From a virus: a stretch of 23,637 nt of DNA. Below the pieces are notes generated by a model. It was not told the DNA's origin, searched no databases, and saw only the letters and a list, made by a program, of their open reading frames with translations. The translations under genes were made by a program, and so were the position numbers. Positions within the stretch are counted from its first letter, which is position 1; each line of letters begins with the position of its first letter. Location of the stretch: IMG/VR virus record IMGVR_UViG_3300017756_000111, positions 1-23,637 of that record, one strand, 5' to 3'. Positions 5,296-17,802 of the stretch are shown piece by piece.

Positions 5296-5351
5296 AGTCA
5301 GTCATTTAAGTGTCCACTCAACCCCCATTATGAGGTAAAATCGTGTATAAT
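5296..5351 (+). promoter_or_regulatory. dyad-type promoter A
   Basis: AGTCAGTCATTTAAGTGTCC at 5296-5315 is a copy of the repeated dyad; its right half is perfect and its left half degenerate. The -10 box TATAAT lies at 5346-5351, starting 50 bases after the first base of the dyad. There is no -35 hexamer at the usual distance (CCCATT is there instead). The predicted transcription start falls at or very near the ATG at 5358, so the message would be almost leaderless. The promoter opens the ligase-like/halogenase operon. Confidence 0.6.
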
Positions 5352-10213: not shown

Positions 10214-10431
10214 AATTCGACCCTAACAGTATCCCATTAAGGAATACCGCACAAGAATTTGAATATGAGAAAATATCAAGAGAGATTGATAGGTGTGATG
10301 ATGTAGAGGAATTGCAGAATATGTGTAAGTTTCTACTCAAGTTAGAAATGAAAACTAGGGAGACATATAGTATTATGATTGCTGATACTATTGAAGCAAT
10401 GAATTCGGACATACCACAGGACAATTTGTAA
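10210..10431 (+). CDS. small acidic helical protein, 73 aa; faint NblA-like pattern
   Basis: The protein is predicted as two helices: QEFEYEKISREIDRC, a short turn with DDVEELQ, then NMCKFLLKLEMKTRETYS. The EFEYEK start, the spacing to a helix with LL.L, and a Tyr near its end recall NblA, the roughly 60-residue adaptor that directs phycobilisomes to Clp protease and is carried by some cyanophages. The resemblance is a pattern, not a clear match, and other cyanobacterial two-helix proteins look alike. It is the last gene of the operon; its stop lies within the dyad of promoter B. Confidence 0.6.
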   Translation: MKFDPNSIPLRNTAQEFEYEKISREIDRCDDVEELQNMCKFLLKLEMKTRETYSIMIADTIEAMNSDIPQDNL

Positions 10432-10475
10432 AGTGTACACTAGGTGGTTGTCAGACCTATTGAATCGTGTATAAT
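10419..10475 (+). promoter_or_regulatory. dyad-type promoter B
   Basis: GGACAATTTGTAAAGTGTAC at 10419-10438 is the dyad, overlapping the end of the preceding gene. The -10 box TATAAT is at 10470-10475, 51 bases after the dyad start. The spacer carries AGGT/ACCT arms that could form a weak hairpin. No -35 box is visible. It drives the structured-RNA region and the 44-residue microprotein. Confidence 0.7.
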
Positions 10476-10481
10476 AGAAGA

Positions 10482-10752
10482 GCGAAACAGTTAAGGGTTC
10501 ATCTACTCTAACAGTTTTGAGAATGGGCAAACGCAAGGCAAGGGTAGGGAATCAATTCAGAAGCGTCTTTGATCGCACACTGTGGAAAACCTTTTAAGAC
10601 GAACCTCTTGTACTCACAGTTTGAAACTGTCAACTTAGTTGCATGAGTTTTGAAGTTGTAAGTCCCACTCTCAAACAAGAAGTAGAGACATGACGATGAA
10701 TTAAAATTACATTCCCCTTAATGTTTCGCCCACTCTTTATATACAACATTAC
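10482..10752 (+). ncRNA. possible structured RNA / long leader, about 270 nt
   Basis: Between promoter B and the 10753 start there is no convincing long gene. A long-range pairing closes the region: TTTGAGAATGGG (10516-10527) against CCCACTCTCAAA (10664-10675), 11 of 12 pairs. Inside it are CGTCTT/AAGACG (10564-10569 with 10596-10601), the near-perfect palindrome ACAGTTTGAAACTGT (10616-10630), and CAACTT/AAGTTG (10631-10636 with 10653-10658). These nest without conflict, as in a multibranched RNA. It could be a small RNA, a riboswitch-like leader of the 44-residue gene, or chance pairings. It matches no RNA family I recognise. Confidence 0.4.
10523..10597 (+). CDS. possible 24-residue basic peptide inside the RNA region
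   Basis: An ATG frame encodes MGKRKARVGNQFRSVFDRTL plus WKTF. It is basic with aromatic residues and has only a weak ribosome site (GAG). Its start falls in the closing stem of the proposed RNA, so translation and folding would compete. Kept as a possibility only. Confidence 0.18.
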   Translation: MGKRKARVGNQFRSVFDRTLWKTF

Positions 10753-10887
10753 ATGAACAAGTTCAGCATGAAAAACACTAAGACTGAATTGCTTAGTGCT
10801 ATCAAGCAAGACTCAAATGTATTAGAAGAGAGAAACTTTCTAGCATGGGCATTTTTCATAGTTCTAGCATGGGGTTTACTCTTCTAA
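10753..10887 (+). CDS. 44-residue membrane microprotein
   Basis: The polar N-terminal half (MNKFSMKNTKTELLSAIKQD) is followed by a C-terminal hydrophobic helix rich in aromatic residues (FLAWAFFIVLAWGLLF) that runs to the stop. The shape is that of a tail-anchored membrane peptide. It lacks the chlorophyll-binding E..NGR motif of high-light-inducible proteins. It is followed by a terminator and shares promoter B with the RNA region. Confidence 0.55.
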   Translation: MNKFSMKNTKTELLSAIKQDSNVLEERNFLAWAFFIVLAWGLLF

Positions 10888-10944
10888 GGACAATTAAATA
10901 ACTGTAACAAGAGACATGCACATGTCTCTTTTTTATTGTAGAAT
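10888..10944 (+). promoter_or_regulatory. dyad-type promoter H
   Basis: GGACAATTAAATAACTGTAA at 10888-10907 is a degenerate dyad copy starting directly after a stop codon. The -10 box TAGAAT is at 10939-10944, again 51 bases after the dyad start. The intrinsic terminator at 10909-10934 fills the space between. The bases after the -10 box (TAGTATATACGAAAC) match the other copies closely. Confidence 0.6.
10909..10934 (+). terminator. intrinsic terminator
   Basis: GAGACATG and CATGTCTC form a perfect eight-pair inverted repeat around a CA centre, followed by a run of six or more T. It ends the promoter B unit and lies inside promoter H. Confidence 0.9.
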
Positions 10945-10965
10945 TAGTATATACGAAACAAATCT

Positions 10966-11142
10966 ATGACCATAACCAGATCAGACTGTCGCTATTACAT
11001 CCAAGAAATCAAAGGTCTTGCTAAGAATTTTGATGATAAGACAGAAGAAAAGATTAATGACAAAGCAAAAAGCATTCCAGCATCTAAACTAAAGATAATG
11101 TATTATGAGTTGATGTCAGAAATTTATGGAGAAGGATACTAA
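10966..11142 (+). CDS. small hypothetical protein, 58 aa
   Basis: First gene after promoter H; the leader is short and has no clear ribosome site. The product is charged and helical (YYIQEIKGLAKNFDDKTEEK) with a C-terminal KIMYYELMSEIYGEGY. Function not recognised. It is followed by one base and the next gene. Confidence 0.6.
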   Translation: MTITRSDCRYYIQEIKGLAKNFDDKTEEKINDKAKSIPASKLKIMYYELMSEIYGEGY

Positions 11143-11143
11143 A

Positions 11144-11293
11144 ATGAATTCAGTAACAGCAGATCGCATCGCTGATGCACTTGAGAGAATTGCTAATGCA
11201 CTAGAGCATTTCAACATAGAGCATGCTCATATAGATGAGATAGACCATAATCATGTTGAAGGTGATGTAAACACACATAACAAAACATGGTAA
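11144..11293 (+). CDS. small His-rich hypothetical protein, 49 aa
   Basis: The N-terminal amphipathic helix (ADRIADALERIANALEHF) has a heptad-like Leu/Ile/Ala pattern, so it may form a coiled coil. The C-terminal half is rich in His and Asp (IEHAHIDEIDHNH), which could bind a metal. The stop overlaps the next ATG (TAATG). Function not recognised. Confidence 0.55.
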   Translation: MNSVTADRIADALERIANALEHFNIEHAHIDEIDHNHVEGDVNTHNKTW

Positions 11294-11997
11294 TGAACTC
11301 AATACTAGCAGGGAAAAAAGCAAAAAGTGATGGACACAAATATGAAGAGATTTGTGTTGATCTTTTAAATGAACGATATGGTGGAGATCATCAAACTGAT
11401 GGTCGTCCACAAACTAAGGTAGATGTATATGACAATGAAGGAACTAACAAATATTCAGTAAAGAATGTATCTAAGAACCATACTCAAGTAGCATTATTAT
11501 CAAGTAAGAAGTTTATAGATCATTTTGATCTTAGAGATAGTAATTGCGAATCTTTTATCAATATGTTCTTTGGATATCCTAATAAGGAATTAATATCTAT
11601 TGTTGAGAGTATCCATCAAAACTTATCACTTAGTGATGCTGAGATACGACAGAATAGAGTTTATAGAGATAATATATCCAATGATATTATTGATAGTTTC
11701 TTATTATTCATGAACTCTTACAAACTAGAGATATTTGATATTATTGTAAGACGAGGATTTAATGGTGATAGTGTTAATCGTATAGTATGGAGAAATAAGA
11801 TAACAAATAATGTTGATATCATAAATGTTGATTCTCTAGTATCACTAATAGAAAATGGTTCATGGAAAATAAATAATACTACACTAGAGTTTAGAACTAG
11901 TGACAATTTCAAACTATTCCATTTACAAATGAAAGGAAGCGGTAAAAAATATAATAGTGGTTATCATGGTATGATGTTTCATATGTATTGGAGGTAA
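11293..11997 (+). CDS. PD-(D/E)XK nuclease-like protein, 234 aa
   Basis: The start at 11293 is chosen because it overlaps the previous stop (TAATG); an in-frame ATG lies six bases upstream. The N-terminal helix GHKYEEICVDLLNERYG offers the conserved Glu (E18/E19). TKVDVYD supplies D44, and KYSVKNV supplies K57 on the next strand, the core layout of restriction-endonuclease-like folds, with Ser in place of the usual Asp/Glu before the Lys. THTQVAL-type polar residues follow (NHTQVALLS). Possible roles are host-DNA degradation or attack on competing DNA. No methyltransferase partner is seen nearby. The C-terminal half is unrecognised. Confidence 0.5.
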   Translation: MNSILAGKKAKSDGHKYEEICVDLLNERYGGDHQTDGRPQTKVDVYDNEGTNKYSVKNVSKNHTQVALLSSKKFIDHFDLRDSNCESFINMFFGYPNKELISIVESIHQNLSLSDAEIRQNRVYRDNISNDIIDSFLLFMNSYKLEIFDIIVRRGFNGDSVNRIVWRNKITNNVDIINVDSLVSLIENGSWKINNTTLEFRTSDNFKLFHLQMKGSGKKYNSGYHGMMFHMYWR

Positions 11998-11998
11998 T

Positions 11999-12127
11999 AT
12001 GAGAACAGATACCACACTTGAAGAGAAGGATGAAATATGGTATAATAATCAACATATACATCCAATAGCGAGAGAAGATGTAGTGGACAGTCAGGAAAGT
12101 GACTACAGACCTGCATATTGGCAATAA
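11999..12127 (+). CDS. small hypothetical protein, 42 aa
   Basis: The GGAGG before the ATG is a good ribosome site, and the start is one base after the preceding stop. The product is acidic and Trp/Tyr-containing (KDEIWYNNQHIHPIARED). Its last third is encoded by the dyad of promoter I, so the C-terminal sequence is constrained by DNA that has a second function. Confidence 0.55.
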   Translation: MRTDTTLEEKDEIWYNNQHIHPIAREDVVDSQESDYRPAYWQ

Positions 12128-12141
12128 TTATACACTATAAT
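12085..12141 (+). promoter_or_regulatory. dyad-type promoter I (dyad inside a coding sequence)
   Basis: GGACAGTCAGGAAAGTGACT at 12085-12104 is the dyad copy, lying within the 42-residue gene. The -10 box TATAAT is at 12136-12141, 51 bases after the dyad start. The sequence after it (TAGAATATACGAAAC) matches the other copies. It drives the helicase gene. Confidence 0.65.
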
Positions 12142-12168
12142 TAGAATATACGAAACATCATTAAATCA

Positions 12169-13443
12169 TTGATTACACTAAGACCTCATCAAGAACGAAC
12201 ACTTGACAAACTAAAACAGTTCGATAAGGGTTGTGTGTATGTTCCTACTGGTGGTGGTAAGACTATCATCATGTTGGAAGATCTAGTGCAAAGATTAGAA
12301 ACTGCTGCTGCTCCATTAACTGTTGTTATTGTTGCACCTCGTTTACTACTAGCAAATCAATTATGTTCTGAGTTTCTAGAGTATACTCAAGACAATGATA
12401 ACATAGTTCTCAACGACAACTTAAACATATTGCATGTACATAGTGGAGAGACATCTTTCGATTCATCTACTAAACCTCGTTACATTCATGAGTGGATAGT
12501 TGATAGACAATTTCAATTACAACATCAAATCATATTTTCTACATATCACTCACTAGGCAGACTAGATGATGCTATGATAGATGTTGATATCATGTATTGT
12601 GATGAAGCACATAACGCAACTCAAAAAAATCATTTTGTTGGAGTTGCTGCTACTGCTACCAATGCAACTAACAGTTATTTCTTTACTGCTACACCAAAAT
12701 ATACTAGAGAAGTTAATGGTCGTGGTATGAATAACACTGATGTATTTGGTAATACCTTAATTAGTGTACCAGCACCAGAATTAATTGAGAATGGTAGTAT
12801 TATACCACCAAAACTAGTAGTTCATGAAACAGATCATGTAAGAACTAAGAGAAATGCACATGATGTTGATCGTGAAATGGTATTAGAAATACTTGACGAT
12901 TTAACAGAAGAGCAAAGTGCTAAAGTTTTAGTTGCTGCTCCTAATACTAGAATATTATGGAGAATGCTATCACAAACTAATCTTTTAGATGTCCTAAAAC
13001 AATTAGGTTATGATGTATTACATATTACATCAAAGCATGGTGCATATGTCAATGACAAAAAAGTTGGTCGTGATGTATTCTTTAATACTCTAACAGAGTG
13101 GGGTCGTGATGACAACAAAAAGTTTGTTGTATTTCATTACTCTATATTATCTGAAGGCATCAATGTTCCAGGATTAACTCATACAATACTATTGAGAAAT
13201 CTACCTGTTATCGAAATGGCACAAACGATAGGAAGAGTCATAAGACTACATAAAGATGATGCAGAAAATATTGCTAATGGCAATATTCCAGTTGGTAATT
13301 ATCAATTATATCGTAAATCTCATGGAGTGGTTACAGTTCCGTTATGTGGTAAAGCATCACTCTCAACTAGGAATAGACTTCAGAAGATTATTGAATTAAT
13401 CTTTGAAGATGGACTTCCTGCTCACTCTTTCGCTAACTCTTAA
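12169..13443 (+). CDS. SF2 DNA/RNA helicase (DEAH type), 424 aa, TTG start
   Basis: TTG is the only usable start in frame; a stop lies three codons upstream and the conserved Q-motif-like LRPHQ follows at once. Walker A GGGKT is at 28-32, motif Ia VAPRLLLANQ at 55-64, the DEAH box at 145-148, motif III TATP at 173-176, and motif VI QTIGRVIR at 352-359. This is a complete two-domain helicase core without extra domains, resembling UvsW/type III restriction-type helicases. Likely roles are branch migration, recombination or replication restart on phage DNA. It is first in the unit driven by promoter I and has no clear Shine-Dalgarno site. The exact subfamily cannot be fixed by eye. Confidence 0.85.
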   Translation: MITLRPHQERTLDKLKQFDKGCVYVPTGGGKTIIMLEDLVQRLETAAAPLTVVIVAPRLLLANQLCSEFLEYTQDNDNIVLNDNLNILHVHSGETSFDSSTKPRYIHEWIVDRQFQLQHQIIFSTYHSLGRLDDAMIDVDIMYCDEAHNATQKNHFVGVAATATNATNSYFFTATPKYTREVNGRGMNNTDVFGNTLISVPAPELIENGSIIPPKLVVHETDHVRTKRNAHDVDREMVLEILDDLTEEQSAKVLVAAPNTRILWRMLSQTNLLDVLKQLGYDVLHITSKHGAYVNDKKVGRDVFFNTLTEWGRDDNKKFVVFHYSILSEGINVPGLTHTILLRNLPVIEMAQTIGRVIRLHKDDAENIANGNIPVGNYQLYRKSHGVVTVPLCGKASLSTRNRLQKIIELIFEDGLPAHSFANS

Positions 13444-13445
13444 CA

Positions 13446-13607
13446 ATGGCATTCCTACACACTATTTTTTATAAAGAAAACAATAGTGGTTCTATGTTAG
13501 AATCAACTATTATAGCAGCATCACCTGATGACGCTAAAACTACATTCTTATCAACAAATCCTGATGCATATATTGATAAGATATTAACAACCGTACCTGC
13601 TAAGTAA
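13446..13607 (+). CDS. small protein, 53 aa, related to the next gene
   Basis: MAFLHTIFYKENNSGSMLES starts with a beta strand, then STIIAASPDDAKTTFL and a helix, ending with YIDKILTTVPAK. The order beta, beta, PD.A helix, I/V-D strand is shared with the downstream 51-residue protein. It starts two bases after the helicase stop. Function not recognised. Confidence 0.6.
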   Translation: MAFLHTIFYKENNSGSMLESTIIAASPDDAKTTFLSTNPDAYIDKILTTVPAK

Positions 13608-13612
13608 ACATC

Positions 13613-13768
13613 ATGTTTTTTGAAATTCGCAAACAAGAAGTCGTCTTCTATAGTCCAAACTTAGGACTTCAGAGTGTTATTGTAAATAGCAATAATCCTG
13701 ATGGTGCTAGACAATTAATACTAGAACAATATGGTAATGTGGATATTAAGAGAGTTAACTCTCTATAG
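13613..13768 (+). CDS. small protein, 51 aa, related to the previous gene
   Basis: The layout follows that of its neighbour: an FFEIRKQEVVFYS strand, SVIVNSNNPDGARQLIL aligning with STIIAASPDDAKTTFL, and a closing VDIKRV segment. It looks like a tandem duplication with strong divergence. The dyad of promoter C begins at its stop codon. Confidence 0.6.
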   Translation: MFFEIRKQEVVFYSPNLGLQSVIVNSNNPDGARQLILEQYGNVDIKRVNSL

Positions 13769-13826
13769 TGACAGTTCACAAAGAGGCACAAGCACCTGTC
13801 AAAAGGTGCTTTTTTATTGCTATACT
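13769..13826 (+). promoter_or_regulatory. dyad-type promoter C
   Basis: TGACAGTTCACAAAGAGGCA at 13769-13788 has a near-perfect left half and a weaker right half. The -10 box TATACT is at 13821-13826, 52 bases after the dyad start. A terminator hairpin sits between. The downstream bases ATTAGTATAAACAAAG match the family. Confidence 0.65.
13790..13816 (+). terminator. intrinsic terminator
   Basis: AGCACCT and AGGTGCT pair around a GTCAAA loop, followed by a T run. It ends the helicase unit and lies inside promoter C. Confidence 0.9.
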
Positions 13827-13852
13827 ATTAGTATAAACAAAGCAAATGAATT

Positions 13853-14347
13853 ATGCCAAACACACCACCAATGCAAATTGATGAACGAAATGTGAAATCA
13901 GCACCAACTGATGCTCAGGCAATACAGGCAGATGTTCTCAACTATACAGAATTTCTAACTCAAATACTAGAGCAACATTATAGACAGTACCATAAAAACA
14001 TGCTTACAGGCAATTCTTTAAGATACGAGGGAGAACTATCTCAGTATGCTAAAGATCAGTTGGCATCAATGGAAGATGGGACTGCAAATCTAATGAAGTT
14101 CAGAATACAAAAAGGTAAGAAATTCCTTAAAGTCATTCAACAAGAATTCGATACATTCCAAGATAGAAATGAGTATCGTGATGGAAGTGTTCATGCATTC
14201 ATCGATAAAAACACTGGTGATGTATACAAACCAGCAGGATGGAATGGTCGTGCAAAGCATGTAAGATACAACTTACTTGACCCTAAATCTCGTGAGTTAT
14301 GTTACATCAATGCTGATTGGGTCGGTTCATATCTCTATCTAAGGTAA
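13853..14347 (+). CDS. conserved cyanophage-type hypothetical protein, 164 aa
   Basis: First gene of the promoter C unit. Residues 25-60 are helical. The C-terminal part HAFIDKNTGDVYKPAGWNG then AKHVRYNLLD is a compact beta-type motif that I recall as recurring in cyanophage hypothetical proteins (memory, not checked). There are no catalytic signatures. The function is unknown; the operon of small early-type genes suggests an infection-phase role, not a structural one. Confidence 0.65.
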   Translation: MPNTPPMQIDERNVKSAPTDAQAIQADVLNYTEFLTQILEQHYRQYHKNMLTGNSLRYEGELSQYAKDQLASMEDGTANLMKFRIQKGKKFLKVIQQEFDTFQDRNEYRDGSVHAFIDKNTGDVYKPAGWNGRAKHVRYNLLDPKSRELCYINADWVGSYLYLR

Positions 14348-14353
14348 TACAAA

Positions 14354-14605
14354 ATGATATCAATGTCAACCATAACTAAACAACAATTCATTCAAGGTGA
14401 TTACACTATGAACAATCTCGATCTTTTAAGTGATGTATTAGAGGACTTTTGTACTAAACATAATTTACCATTTATGAGTGCTGATGATCTATTATATGGT
14501 CATGTATATGCTGAAATCAATGGACTAACCGAGTATCAACAAAACTGGTTAAACAATTACATCCAAGTGTGGGATTTAACTCAAGATCAGGGGATTACAT
14601 CATGA
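14354..14605 (+). CDS. small hypothetical protein, up to 83 aa
   Basis: Two starts are possible: 14354 (AAGGTAAT upstream) and 14408 (AAGGTGAT upstream, giving MNNLDLLSDVLEDFC). The conserved-looking part begins at the second, so the 65-residue form may be the main one. The product is acidic and helical with a C-terminal LTEYQQNWLNNYIQVWDL. The stop overlaps the next start by ATGA. Function not recognised. Confidence 0.6.
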   Translation: MISMSTITKQQFIQGDYTMNNLDLLSDVLEDFCTKHNLPFMSADDLLYGHVYAEINGLTEYQQNWLNNYIQVWDLTQDQGITS

Positions 14606-14817
14606 GACAAGTTATTAATTATTCTTTTAGAATAGAAGTTGTAGGTGATACAGATGCACCAAATCCGTTGCATTTATGTGAAGAAATACAGGCATATCTC
14701 AATGCTCATGTATGCTTGGATGATGGAGGAAGTGGTGAGTTCGCAGATGCTCAAGTAGTAGGATATCATGTTAAAAGAGATAATTTTACCCCATTTATTG
14801 CACAAGAGGAGTATTAA
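14602..14817 (+). CDS. small hypothetical protein, 71 aa
   Basis: The start at ATG 14602 is fixed by the four-base overlap with the preceding gene; a GTG further up in the same frame is less likely. An alternating strand pattern (INYSFRIEVVGD) is followed by a short helix (LHLCEEIQAYLNAHV) and another strand, a small alpha/beta fold. It abuts the HicA-like gene with no spacing. Function not recognised. Confidence 0.6.
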   Translation: MRQVINYSFRIEVVGDTDAPNPLHLCEEIQAYLNAHVCLDDGGSGEFADAQVVGYHVKRDNFTPFIAQEEY

Positions 14818-15006
14818 ATGGCATTAAAGATATGCAAAGACCTTAGAAAGTTGATGAAAAAGTATGACTTTAAACTTGAAAAGGTCGGCAAACATTATAC
14901 ATGGCATGGTGCAAATGGTGCTATAATAGTAACATCTAAAACACCAGGAAAAGCACGATATTTAAAAGAAATAGAGTGCAACATCCGAAAATCCCTTAAC
15001 AACTAA
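14818..15006 (+). CDS. HicA/YcfA-like small basic protein, 62 aa
   Basis: LRKLMKKYDFKLEKVGKHYT followed by WHGANGAIIV follows the HicA pattern: helix, strand, a G-x-H in place of the usual G-S-H with an aromatic two residues on, then a strand and helix. HicA toxins are small double-stranded-RNA-binding-fold ribonucleases acting on mRNA, with the His as catalytic residue. No HicB antitoxin is recognisable beside it. It could be a stand-alone RNA-binding or host-takeover protein. The resemblance is modest. Confidence 0.5.
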   Translation: MALKICKDLRKLMKKYDFKLEKVGKHYTWHGANGAIIVTSKTPGKARYLKEIECNIRKSLNN

Positions 15007-15019
15007 TCACCTTAATTAC

Positions 15020-15229
15020 ATGACTAAAAAGTTATTTAAACCTGCAAATCCTGCTTCTATTGATGATAACGAAGTAGGATATATGACCTACCTTGATTTA
15101 CTAACAGAGTTGCAATCTATGGATGAAGATAAACTTTTAGAGACAGTAACAGTTTATGATACATTGGATGATGTATTTTTACCAGTCGGTAGAATCATAT
15201 CAAGATTTACAACTTGTTTAGAGGTGTAG
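15020..15229 (+). CDS. small conserved-type hypothetical protein, 69 aa
   Basis: An acidic protein with the pattern MTYLDLLTELQSMDEDKLLE, then TVTVYDTLDDVFLPVGRI. The helix followed by a TVTVYD strand and F.PV is a motif I recall from small phage proteins of unknown role (memory, not checked). Last gene of the promoter C unit; the next dyad begins three bases after its stop. Confidence 0.6.
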   Translation: MTKKLFKPANPASIDDNEVGYMTYLDLLTELQSMDEDKLLETVTVYDTLDDVFLPVGRIISRFTTCLEV

Positions 15230-15231
15230 TG

Positions 15232-15288
15232 TGCCAGTTGACAAAGTTGCACACTAGGACTAGAAAATGATCTTGTATGGACTATAAT
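15232..15288 (+). promoter_or_regulatory. dyad-type promoter D
   Basis: The dyad copy starts at about 15232 (TGCCAGTTGACAAAGTTGCA). The -10 box TATAAT is at 15283-15288, 51 bases downstream. The TTGACA inside the dyad is 39 bases from the -10 box, too far to act as its -35 hexamer. The transcribed leader is almost identical to that of promoter F. Confidence 0.65.
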
Positions 15289-15316
15289 AGTAGTATACAA
15301 ACAAAGTTCAGAAATT

Positions 15317-15502
15317 ATGCGAAAAGGATTAAACATCGAAGTCACATCTTCACAGTACGATTATCTTTATGAAGTGCTAATGGAAGCATACTCAAACGAT
15401 GTAGCAGAGCAAAAAGATTGGGATGTCCAAACATTTGACAATCTAATAGACAATCTATGTCAAGCAAAAGAGACTAACCTCTCAAATTCAGTTAAAGGTT
15501 AA
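15317..15502 (+). CDS. small hypothetical protein, 61 aa
   Basis: First gene of the promoter D unit, with no ribosome site in its short leader (TTCAGAAATTATG). Helical and acidic: VTSSQYDYLYEVLMEAYSND. Function not recognised. Confidence 0.6.
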   Translation: MRKGLNIEVTSSQYDYLYEVLMEAYSNDVAEQKDWDVQTFDNLIDNLCQAKETNLSNSVKG

Positions 15503-15506
15503 ACTA

Positions 15507-15794
15507 ATGAAATACTACTCACATAACCGAATGAAGGAAGTAAACAAAGAGTTTACACCCGAATTAATCAAAGAATTAAAATCTTTCTTTGTTGAGAGAC
15601 TTGTTGATAATATGTCAACAGAAGATTTAGTTGAATATGTAACAACTGATATGGATAAGTATGTTGATACTCAATTTGATGAAGATTTCCTCAATGATGC
15701 TATGGATTACTGGGGAGATCATTTTGATGATGTAGTAGAAGAAATAGAAGAGTATGCAAATTGCGATTTCAAAAAAGACAGGAGAGCAAACTAA
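15507..15794 (+). CDS. small acidic hypothetical protein, 95 aa
   Basis: Very acidic, predicted all-helical (FVERLVDNMSTEDLVEYVTT; FDDVVEEIEEYANCDF), with a basic tail. Acidity and size would suit a DNA mimic or a protein-binding inhibitor, but no family is recognised. The stop overlaps the next start (TAATG). Confidence 0.6.
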   Translation: MKYYSHNRMKEVNKEFTPELIKELKSFFVERLVDNMSTEDLVEYVTTDMDKYVDTQFDEDFLNDAMDYWGDHFDDVVEEIEEYANCDFKKDRRAN

Positions 15795-16024
15795 TGAAAC
15801 CTAATCTATTCGAGCAAATGTTTCAAACAGTCATTTCAGAACATTTTGGTAGAACATTTTGGTTAGATAAAGAAATGGAGTTATGTTCAGCACCAACTTA
15901 TACAGATGGTTCAACTGACTGGGATACATGGGATTATGTATCAGAGTGGACTGAATTAGATGGTTTAAATCTAGATAGATTATTATCTATTCATAGAGAT
16001 CTAATTAAGAATTACAATGTGTAA
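15794..16024 (+). CDS. small hypothetical protein, 76 aa
   Basis: ATG 15794 overlaps the preceding stop, and GGAGAGC upstream (15781-15787) is an acceptable ribosome site. A Trp/Asp-rich central part (STDWDTWDYVSEWTELDG) is followed by a helix (LNLDRLLSIHRDLIKNY). Function not recognised. Confidence 0.6.
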   Translation: MKPNLFEQMFQTVISEHFGRTFWLDKEMELCSAPTYTDGSTDWDTWDYVSEWTELDGLNLDRLLSIHRDLIKNYNV

Positions 16025-16202
16025 ACAATTTACAAATCACAAAATGATGAAACTAAGACAAAAAACAATCACAGTAGAATTGACATTTGATGAATTATAT
16101 CAAATGAACAAATTACATGAGACAATGTTAGATATGGATATGTTGGATGACCTACCCAATGAAATTGAAGCAGTTTTTGACAAAATTCGTGATGCAAAGT
16201 AG
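16017..16202 (+). CDS. small hypothetical protein, 61 aa
   Basis: It overlaps the preceding gene by eight bases; in-frame ATGs at 16044 and 16047 are alternative starts that would give a 51- or 52-residue protein. The core TITVELTFDELYQMNKLHET is a strand followed by a helix with several Met and Leu. The stop falls at the start of the dyad of promoter E. Confidence 0.55.
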   Translation: MCKQFTNHKMMKLRQKTITVELTFDELYQMNKLHETMLDMDMLDDLPNEIEAVFDKIRDAK

Positions 16203-16257
16203 ACAGTTTGCAAAGTGTCCACTAATACCACTAAATGCATCTGGTATGGACTACAAT
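16201..16257 (+). promoter_or_regulatory. dyad-type promoter E
   Basis: AGACAGTTTGCAAAGTGTCC at 16201-16220 is a near-perfect dyad copy. The -10 box TACAAT is at 16252-16257, 51 bases downstream. ATACCA and TGGTAT in the spacer form an inverted repeat without a T run. No -35 box. Confidence 0.7.
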
Positions 16258-16282
16258 TAGTATATACAAACGAAATTCTAAA

Positions 16283-16477
16283 ATGAACTACCGAATGACT
16301 AAATCTCAAGCAGTTGCATCTTTCAGAGAAATGTGGGCAGATGTAGTAAAATCTGACCCTATGTGGAGAGGAGACAAAATTGCGAAGAGAACAGCATTCA
16401 ATGATTTTGTTGATGGTCTTAACAAAGATGGTATGGTAACAGATTATCAGGCATATAACTGGAGCAACCCATTTTAA
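16283..16477 (+). CDS. small hypothetical protein, 64 aa
   Basis: The start at 16283 is preferred to in-frame ATG 16235, which lies inside the promoter. MNYRMTKSQAVASFREMWAD is helical, followed by DPMWRGDKIAKRTAFNDFVD; basic and Trp-containing. It is alone in its transcription unit. Function not recognised. Confidence 0.65.
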   Translation: MNYRMTKSQAVASFREMWADVVKSDPMWRGDKIAKRTAFNDFVDGLNKDGMVTDYQAYNWSNPF

Positions 16478-16534
16478 GGACAGTTCACAAAGTGTCCACT
16501 AACACCTGATAAACACCTCATCATCCTTTATAAT
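16478..16534 (+). promoter_or_regulatory. dyad-type promoter F (best dyad copy)
   Basis: GGACAGTTCACAAAGTGTCC at 16478-16497 is the copy closest to full symmetry: arms GGACA/TGTCC with TT/AA inside. The -10 box TATAAT is at 16529-16534, 51 bases after the dyad start. The spacer holds no hairpin and no -35 box. Confidence 0.75.
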
Positions 16535-16562
16535 AGTAGTATACAAACGAAATTCAGAAATT

Positions 16563-16805
16563 ATGAACTCAAAAGCAACTTACATCGAACCAGTAAACCG
16601 AATCAAGCAGAGAATTCTGTTTGATGACAATCTTTCAAATGTTGCATGCTTATGTGCCAATTGGGAAGAGTATGTCATCGAGATCTCAGAGTGGGGCATC
16701 TACAAGTTAGGAGGAGTTGATTTTGATACTCTAACTCAAGATGATATTTCAAAACTTGATGCTTTCATGGTTTCAGAAAATGGTTACATCAGAGAGGAAG
16801 TTTAA
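16563..16805 (+). CDS. small hypothetical protein, 80 aa
   Basis: First gene of the promoter F unit, with a leader matching that of promoter D. The middle is strand-rich with Trp/Cys (NVACLCANWEEYVIEISEWG) and ends in a helical, acidic part (LTQDDISKLDAFM). Function not recognised. Confidence 0.6.
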   Translation: MNSKATYIEPVNRIKQRILFDDNLSNVACLCANWEEYVIEISEWGIYKLGGVDFDTLTQDDISKLDAFMVSENGYIREEV

Positions 16806-17000
16806 ATGAAAACATTTACTAGAAAAGAATACAACTTAGTTGCAAATGCTCTTCAAAACTATAATCTGTATATGTCAGATAGTGAGAAGAAGATCGCTGA
16901 AATAATACAAGATAAATTATATTATTTCAATGTAGATAAGGAAGTTGATGCTTTATCATCATCAATTGATAATGAAATCAAATCACTTAATTTTAGATAA
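16806..17000 (+). CDS. small helical hypothetical protein, 64 aa
   Basis: It directly abuts the previous stop (TAAATG). Predicted all-helical: TRKEYNLVANALQNYNLYMS then SEKKIAEIIQDKLYYF. The stop overlaps the next start (TAATG). Function not recognised. Confidence 0.6.
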   Translation: MKTFTRKEYNLVANALQNYNLYMSDSEKKIAEIIQDKLYYFNVDKEVDALSSSIDNEIKSLNFR

Positions 17001-17182
17001 TGAGCAACATACATAACGAGACAATCCTAGAAAACCTATATGATGAAGTATGGGAAGAATATAGGATTAAAAATAATCTAACTAATGATCAACTTTATAC
17101 ATTAGAACAAAATACAGATACAGGAACTATTGTTGAAATAGTAATAGAAACTACTAGAAGATTCGATGCTATGTGTCAATAA
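17000..17182 (+). CDS. small acidic hypothetical protein, 60 aa
   Basis: The TAATG overlap fixes the start. Acidic and helical (NETILENLYDEVWEEYRIKN) with a C-terminal IVEIVIETTRRFDAM. Last tightly linked gene of the promoter F unit. Confidence 0.6.
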   Translation: MSNIHNETILENLYDEVWEEYRIKNNLTNDQLYTLEQNTDTGTIVEIVIETTRRFDAMCQ

Positions 17183-17192
17183 CTGTTCTCTC

Positions 17193-17286
17193 ACTAATTA
17201 ACAATGTGGCATTCTAATTAGACACACAATGTGTTAGGATGATGTAAGACCACTAATTAACACTAACTGTTTTTTACTAATTAACA
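17193..17286 (+). repeat. three direct copies of ACTAATTAACA
   Basis: Identical 11-base copies lie at 17193-17203, 17252-17262 and 17276-17286, all between two genes and ahead of the 36-residue gene. A GACACACAATGTGT partial dyad lies between the first two. They may be regulator sites or duplicated leader sequence. Confidence 0.6.
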
Positions 17287-17289
17287 ACA

Positions 17290-17400
17290 ATGACTCTACA
17301 ATCTGTACCATTTGTTAACATTGACCTTGACGCAGTTTTCGAGGATGCAAAAACTGGAAATGACATTCTAGCGGTATTATCTGAATTAGTGGGCGAATAA
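17290..17400 (+). CDS. small acidic hypothetical protein, 36 aa
   Basis: MTLQSVPFVNIDLDAVFEDA then KTGNDILAVLSELVGE: a short strand followed by an acidic helix. It starts three bases after a triple repeat and its stop abuts the dyad of promoter G. No clear ribosome site. Confidence 0.5.
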   Translation: MTLQSVPFVNIDLDAVFEDAKTGNDILAVLSELVGE

Positions 17401-17458
17401 AACCACTTCACAAACTGGCACACTAACCCCCCTTTGGGGGTTTTTTATTGGTTATAAT
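17401..17458 (+). promoter_or_regulatory. dyad-type promoter G
   Basis: AACCACTTCACAAACTGGCA at 17401-17420 is a diverged dyad copy. The -10 box TATAAT is at 17453-17458, 52 bases after the dyad start. A C5/G5 terminator hairpin fills the space between. Downstream, AGATGTATACCAAACAAAG matches the shared initial transcribed sequence. Confidence 0.65.
17425..17447 (+). terminator. intrinsic terminator
   Basis: AACCCCC and GGGGGTT pair around a short loop, followed by a T run. It ends the promoter F unit and is embedded in promoter G. Confidence 0.9.
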
Positions 17459-17484: not shown

Positions 17485-17802
17485 ATGCGAATCATCGAAA
17501 AGAACATGAATCAGGCAATCAGAAACAACTCTGACTTCAGATCTTCAAATACCGAGGTAGTGAACATCAGGGGCAACTCATTTGTTTATTTACATGGCAA
17601 TCACATTGCAACCGTATCAAACAATTCAATTCAAATCTTCGATGGCGGTTGGCAGTCAAACACCACTAAATCTAGACTCAATGCACTATTAGATGAATTT
17701 TCATATGGCATGAGAGTTTTTCAAAAGCAATTTGAGTGGTTCGTATCTTACAAAAATGTCAGCGAAGATTTCGTATCTGGCATGGAACTAGCAATAGATT
17801 AA
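17485..17802 (+). CDS. conserved cyanophage-type hypothetical protein, 105 aa
   Basis: The in-frame ATG 17461 lies two bases after the -10 box and so would be upstream of the transcript; ATG 17485, with AAAGAGA ahead of it, is the likely start. MRIIEKNMNQAIRNN begins a helix. SFVYLHGNHIATVSNNSIQI then FDGGWQSNTTKSRLNALLDE gives a small beta meander plus helix that I recall from cyanophage hypothetical proteins (memory, not checked). Role unknown. Confidence 0.7.
   Translation: MRIIEKNMNQAIRNNSDFRSSNTEVVNIRGNSFVYLHGNHIATVSNNSIQIFDGGWQSNTTKSRLNALLDEFSYGMRVFQKQFEWFVSYKNVSEDFVSGMELAID

Follow-up and report, generated by a model that had tools for sequence, protein, structure and literature searches.

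Putative intrinsic terminators nested in fixed-length early promoters of T4-like cyanophages

Genome annotation usually treats terminators and promoters as distinct features that exclude each other. A novel element for early genes was reportedly described in Syn9 and P-TIM40 by Doron et al. in 2016, and we know of no report of terminators nested in it. In the passages that we located in Sullivan et al. (2010), promoters and terminators are predicted by separate programs and nesting of one in the other is not described. T4-like middle promoters and motA/asiA are reported to be absent from T4-like cyanophages (PMC5780444), and short repeated intergenic cassettes act as promoters across the genome of halovirus HF2 (PMC8707807).

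The window analyzed here, that is, the whole stretch of DNA studied, comprises 23,637 bases and is an entire IMG/VR record. Its nucleotide matches to named phages are short only. Its genes include those for tryptophan halogenases, a DEAD/ResIII helicase, Kyano_Gp96, and gp25, and their order is that of the early-gene cluster which P-TIM40 and Syn9 carry between the halogenases and gp25/gp6. On these grounds we assign the window to the early-gene cluster of a T4-like cyanophage (Kyanoviridae). On its + strand we found nine cassettes in which a dyad operator is followed, after a gap of 26–28 bp, by a TATAAT-like -10 box, with a conserved AGTATATACAAAC-like start region 3′ of the latter. The operator block common to all nine spans 23 bp (GMCAGTTnACAAAGTGTCCACTA and variants) and has the dyad consensus GNCAnTT-N4-AAnTGNCcActa. 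The dyad axis runs through GNCAnTT-N4-AAnTGNC, farther upstream than the AGTGTNCACT motif alone implies; here the pairs C8:G21, A9:T20, and T11:A18 are kept in 97%, 90%, and 85%, respectively, and paired identity over the best eight positions is 0.67 vs 0.44 for the next axis. We presume that this operator is likely the early-gene element of Doron et al. Six of the cassettes carry no nested terminator:

5297..5351, + strand: cassette without a hairpin, operator to -10 box (TATAAT at 5346)
10420..10475, + strand: cassette without a terminator, with a five-of-six -35 match (TTGTCA at 10448) 16 bp from TATAAT at 10470; 5′ of a non-coding stretch
12086..12141, + strand: cassette without a terminator, 5′ of the helicase gene at 12169
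15233..15288, + strand: cassette without a terminator; long operator palindrome TAGTGTGC-N16-GCACACTA
16202..16257, + strand: cassette without a terminator, -10 box TACAAT
16479..16534, + strand: cassette without a terminator, best operator match of the window

Searches of the cassettes against Rfam and for tRNA and tmRNA gave no significant match. Directly 3′ of the operator-type promoter at 10420, about 270 nt are non-coding (10476-10745). The two ends of this stretch pair, GCGAAACAGTTAAGGG with CCCTTAATGTTTCGC, and its folding energy is -65.4 kcal/mol (z -1.9). Blastn relatives occur in three other loci (L036, L028, and L062), Rfam gives no match, and the stretch is a candidate conserved phage RNA. 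Separately, the P-TIM40 spacers at L091:2463-5050 include CACTAC(C), which resembles a third half-site, about 14 nt 3′ of the operator; this suggests that the regulator of those cassettes may bind more than two half-sites.

In the remaining three cassettes (A, B, and C), the preliminary description had placed a terminator hairpin with its T run between the dyad and the -10 box, and both the sequence and the scan confirm it there:

10889..10911, + strand: operator of cassette A, GACAATTAAATAACTGTAACAAG, with a weak CACTA end; starts 2 nt 3′ of the stop of ORF 10753-10887
10909..10934, + strand: terminator of cassette A, 9-bp stem and TGCA loop (10909-10930), T run to 10934
10939..10944, + strand: -10 box of cassette A, TAGAAT; inferred start ~10951; predicted to drive ORF 10966-11142
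13770..13792, + strand: operator of cassette B, GACAGTTCACAAAGAGGCACAAG; starts 2 nt 3′ of the stop of ORF 13613-13768
13790..13815, + strand: terminator of cassette B, 8-bp stem and 6-nt loop (13790-13811), T run to 13815
13821..13826, + strand: -10 box of cassette B, TATACT; predicted to drive ORF 13853-14347 (Pfam DUF7717)
17402..17424, + strand: operator of cassette C, ACCACTTCACAAACTGGCACACT; starts 2 nt 3′ of the TAA stop at 17398-17400
17425..17446, + strand: terminator of cassette C, AACCCCCCTTTGGGGGTT (17425-17442), T run to 17446
17453..17458, + strand: -10 box of cassette C, TATAAT; predicted to drive the Kyano_Gp96 gene 17485-17802

Each + strand hairpin (10909-10930, 13790-13811, and 17425-17442) has the anatomy of an intrinsic terminator, namely a GC-rich stem of 5 bp or more, a short loop, and a run of about six T directly after the stem; the T runs stop 4–6 bp 5′ of the -10 box, and in cassette A the terminator shares 3 nt with the end of the operator block. 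Folding energies are -10.1 kcal/mol for A and -12.3 and -11.5 kcal/mol (centroid) for B and C. When whole segments were subjected to dinucleotide shuffling, hairpin A was more stable than the shuffles and B and C were not, because their C/G- and T-rich composition already folds; these z-scores, weak for B and C, were not counted as proof. The -10 hexamers of the cassettes are close to TATAAT, as expected of sigma70-type promoters, and the distance from the dyad operator is constant, as in activator-dependent promoters: from operator start to -10 box it measures 50, 51, and 51 bp in the hairpin cassettes (10889, 13770, and 17402) and 49, 50, 50, 50, 50, and 50 bp in those at 5297, 10420, 12086, 15233, 16202, and 16479. 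The earlier statement that the hairpin leaves this distance unchanged thus holds to within 1 bp in the window.

The same geometry recurs across viruses. A pattern scan of 2.9 million IMG/VR viral contigs, with the gap left free between 12 and 42 bp, recovered 65 distinct sites, of which 31 had 26 bp and 24 had 27 bp between the operator core and TATAAT, the other ten being scattered. With a matrix seeded by the exact 26/27-bp sites, the gap again being free in the later scans, about 170 of 176 sites had a gap of 25–28 bp, as did 44 of 46 in cultured phages plus the window (shuffled sequence gave one match); the cassette is present in Syn9, P-TIM40, P-SSM7, S-SSM5, S-RIM4, S-CAM22, and metaG-MbCM1. 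Redundancy was removed by clustering on operator plus downstream sequence, since single-linkage of the gaps lumped T-run spacers and undercounted terminators. Among the resulting 115 cassettes, 40 have a terminator in the gap, 17 another hairpin, and 58 none, and gap length is the same in all three classes. The figure of 40 is slightly low, because the strict rule missed the cassette at 10889 of the window, where the stem begins inside the operator block; shuffled gaps yield a terminator at a rate of 0.3 per 79 (~0.4%). Conversely, 28 of the 89 strict terminators found across all loci sit between an operator and a -10 box, vs one (operator) and none (-10) when positions were shifted by 100 bp.

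The 40 nested terminators have 31 different left arms and stem-loops of 13–21 nt, and the gap is always 25–28 bp. In 37 of them an upstream co-directional ORF ends at the operator (median offset 0); stop codon, operator, terminator, and -10 box lie end to end within about 55 bases. Anatomy and comparison thereby bear out the proposal of a complete terminator lying inside the next promoter, and of a compact cassette that ends one unit and starts the next. At the level of sequence, the comparison confirms that the nested arrangement is general, occurring often in cyanobacterial viruses and leaving promoter geometry unaltered.

These hairpins might instead be elements acting at the DNA level, such as a second regulator dyad or a cruciform, with the terminator look a by-product. 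Some gaps do have long inverted repeats that adjoin the -10 box and lack a T run; however, in 40 of 115 cassettes a T-rich tail comes after the hairpin, as the layout of an intrinsic terminator requires, and the 31 kinds of left arm argue against one recognized site, so we regard this reading as very unlikely. The strong inverted repeats without a T run (e.g., L053:4620, L072:11258, L072:12212, and L017:4190) cannot be ordinary terminators; at or below -10 kcal/mol they occur in 4 of 74 gaps vs 0.4 expected. Since such repeats occur, hairpins in the gaps may have a second role.

Orthologous promoters differ in whether they carry the hairpin. A comparison of spacing in related phages with and without it, as the preliminary description had suggested, gave a gap of 25–29 bp either way. 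Upstream of Kyano_Gp96, for instance, the gap among 17 relatives is 26 bp in nine, 27 bp in seven, and 29 bp in one weak case; a terminator occurs in only one of these relatives (L062), and also in the window, where the gap is 28 bp. The helicase promoter has a terminator in seven of eight nearby relatives (P-TIM40, P-SSM7, S-SSM5, metaG-MbCM1, L050, L105, and L060), with gaps of 25–27 bp, and none in the window. The promoters of the DUF7717, DUF6267, and 16563 genes are likewise mixed. Judged from this comparison, the hairpin is an optional insert-by-substitution within a promoter of fixed length.

The hairpin occupies the region where -35 contacts would lie, and it had been argued that a -35 box cannot exist there, such that fitting in a terminator forces dependence on an activator. 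The three hairpin cassettes of the window do lack a canonical sigma70 -35 box (near TTGACA, at 16–18 bp), matching it at no more than four of six positions, the nearest approach being TGCACA at 10917, 16 bp from TAGAAT. However, the terminator-free cassettes mostly lack a -35 box as well (a five-of-six match at 16–18 bp occurs in 5 of 75, and in 9 of all 115 cassettes), so the hairpin is not the cause of its absence; moreover, orthologous promoters occur with and without the hairpin. A weak -35 signal exceeds that of shuffles in all classes (at least four of six positions in 37 of 115 cassettes vs ~14 expected), and the operator may therefore not wholly replace the -35 contact.

TTGACA also fits into hairpin loops. 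In several cultured phages, e.g., S-RIM4 (L109:10562), S-SSM5 (L110:9703 and 12157), and P-TIM40 (L093:19037), a -35 hexamer makes up the loop, and a -10 box lies about 17 bp from it. The arrangements GGGG-TTGACA-CCCC-TTTT and CCCC-TTGACA-GGGG-TTTT each occur in at least 120 IMG/VR contigs, vs 14 and 9 contigs for a control with the permuted loop TTAGCA. Among the matches listed, a -10-like box lies at 16–18 bp, with a sharp peak at 17, in 64 of 79 non-redundant G-arm and 40 of 53 non-redundant C-arm cases, and the cyanophage operator stands just upstream in 12 of the 53 C-arm cases. In this class the right arm plus the T run is exactly the promoter spacer. Hairpin and -35 box are hence compatible; as a general rule, exclusion of the -35 box by the hairpin is ruled out by the loop -35 cases, and we give that explanation almost no credence. 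Loop -35 terminators are widespread in viral contigs (e.g., L086, L117, L126, and L213), in both cyanophages and Enterococcus phages, and related elements are probably present in Staphylococcus phages too.

We consider it probable that the operator cassettes of this T4-like cyanophage are fusions of a terminator with a promoter, in which a factor bound at the operator aids transcription start and only the length of the spacer is constrained. The early promoter would consist of the dyad operator, a fixed 26–28-bp spacer, and the TATAAT-like -10 box; the operator-bound protein, centered about 53 bp 5′ of the inferred start, would help the host sigma70-type polymerase to start. As this protein probably helps the polymerase, a strong -35 box would be dispensable, and, as only spacer length is constrained, the spacer could house a whole terminator, with the upstream transcript predicted to end in the T run just 5′ of the next -10 box. 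In vivo termination, the position of the start, and an activating role of the operator-bound protein are what we infer from sequence; recruitment of the polymerase by such a factor, which the preliminary description also favored, is plausible because the spacing is strict, and activation is likely.

Alternatively, the operator may serve in repression, shutting off early genes, with the promoter being of the plain or extended -10 type and independent of any activator. A TG precedes the -10 box in 21 of the 40 cassettes with a terminator, which, like the weak -35 signal, would suit this; yet few of the terminator-free cassettes have it (8 of 58), and an operator at a fixed distance 5′ of the -35 region is more usual for activation than for repression, which makes repression unlikely.

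The activating factor is likely phage-encoded or virion-carried, because the cassette was not found in the cyanobacterial genomes scanned; a host factor that uses other site layouts may also serve. In the scan, 84,980 species were each represented by one genome; of the 13 hits none came from cyanobacteria, and we rejected a host-derived regulon. All but two of the hits look like chance. The two hit contigs, from a Rhodobiaceae MAG (L097) and a Euryarchaeota MAG (L105), encode cyanophage helicase or DUF6267 homologs beside the cassette, and on that account are probably mis-binned phage. To our knowledge, cyanobacteria lack Rho; our Rho search of control genomes gave a loose match in most, a count that does not distinguish those passing the cut-off.

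Most simply, the nesting of terminator and promoter would serve compaction and insulation, leaving almost no spare base and keeping read-through from the next unit. It might, however, couple the two events, the polymerase that ends at the T run staying on the DNA and being recaptured at the next -10 box. In vitro, E. coli polymerase usually stays on DNA after intrinsic termination and can restart at nearby promoters (PMC6978380, PMC6978322), and the T runs of the window stop within 4–6 bp of the -10 box. Restart nevertheless requires sigma to be kept or rebound, it often proceeds in the reverse direction (PMC6978322), and compaction alone explains the layout; recapture thus appears quite unlikely to be what the nesting serves. 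Somewhat more room, though still as an unlikely proposal, may be given to a hand-off in which polymerase retained at the nested T run would restart so that upstream transcription feeds the next gene; a very common form of it in phages would have the -35 box in the loop and the 3′ half of the terminator as the 17-bp spacer.

A terminator and a promoter here use the same bases, and their geometry stays constant throughout an abundant family of marine viruses; a second and broader class has the -35 hexamer as its terminator loop, with stem and T run forming the 17-bp spacer. If confirmed, this would change the prediction of phage transcription units, supply a compact natural insulator-promoter part, and offer a clean natural setting for polymerase restart at a promoter overlapping a terminator.

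A literature search on terminator/promoter overlap in phages returned nothing pertinent. The promoter class itself has probably been reported already: the element of Doron et al. comes from the same virus family and the same early-gene cluster, and Syn9 and P-TIM40 both carry the present cassette at the same spacing. We found no earlier description of terminators nested in this way or of the class with a -35 hexamer in the loop. The repeats of HF2 are archaeal promoters, and a nested terminator is not described in the abstract of that work (PMC8707807). Like T4 middle promoters, the cassettes join a sigma70-type -10 box to an upstream factor site in place of the -35 box; however, the T4 MotA box lies near -30, whereas the cyanophage operator is a long dyad centered at about -53, and the spacer profiles contain no conserved TGCTT-like MotA box. 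A T4 MotA-type promoter was accordingly rejected on position and motif, motA/asiA also being reported absent (PMC5780444). The hairpins resemble intrinsic (rho-independent) terminators in their GC-rich stem, short loop, and T run; unlike the usual ones, they lie inside a promoter, at fixed distances to operator and -10 box, and in the second class the -35 hexamer itself forms the loop.
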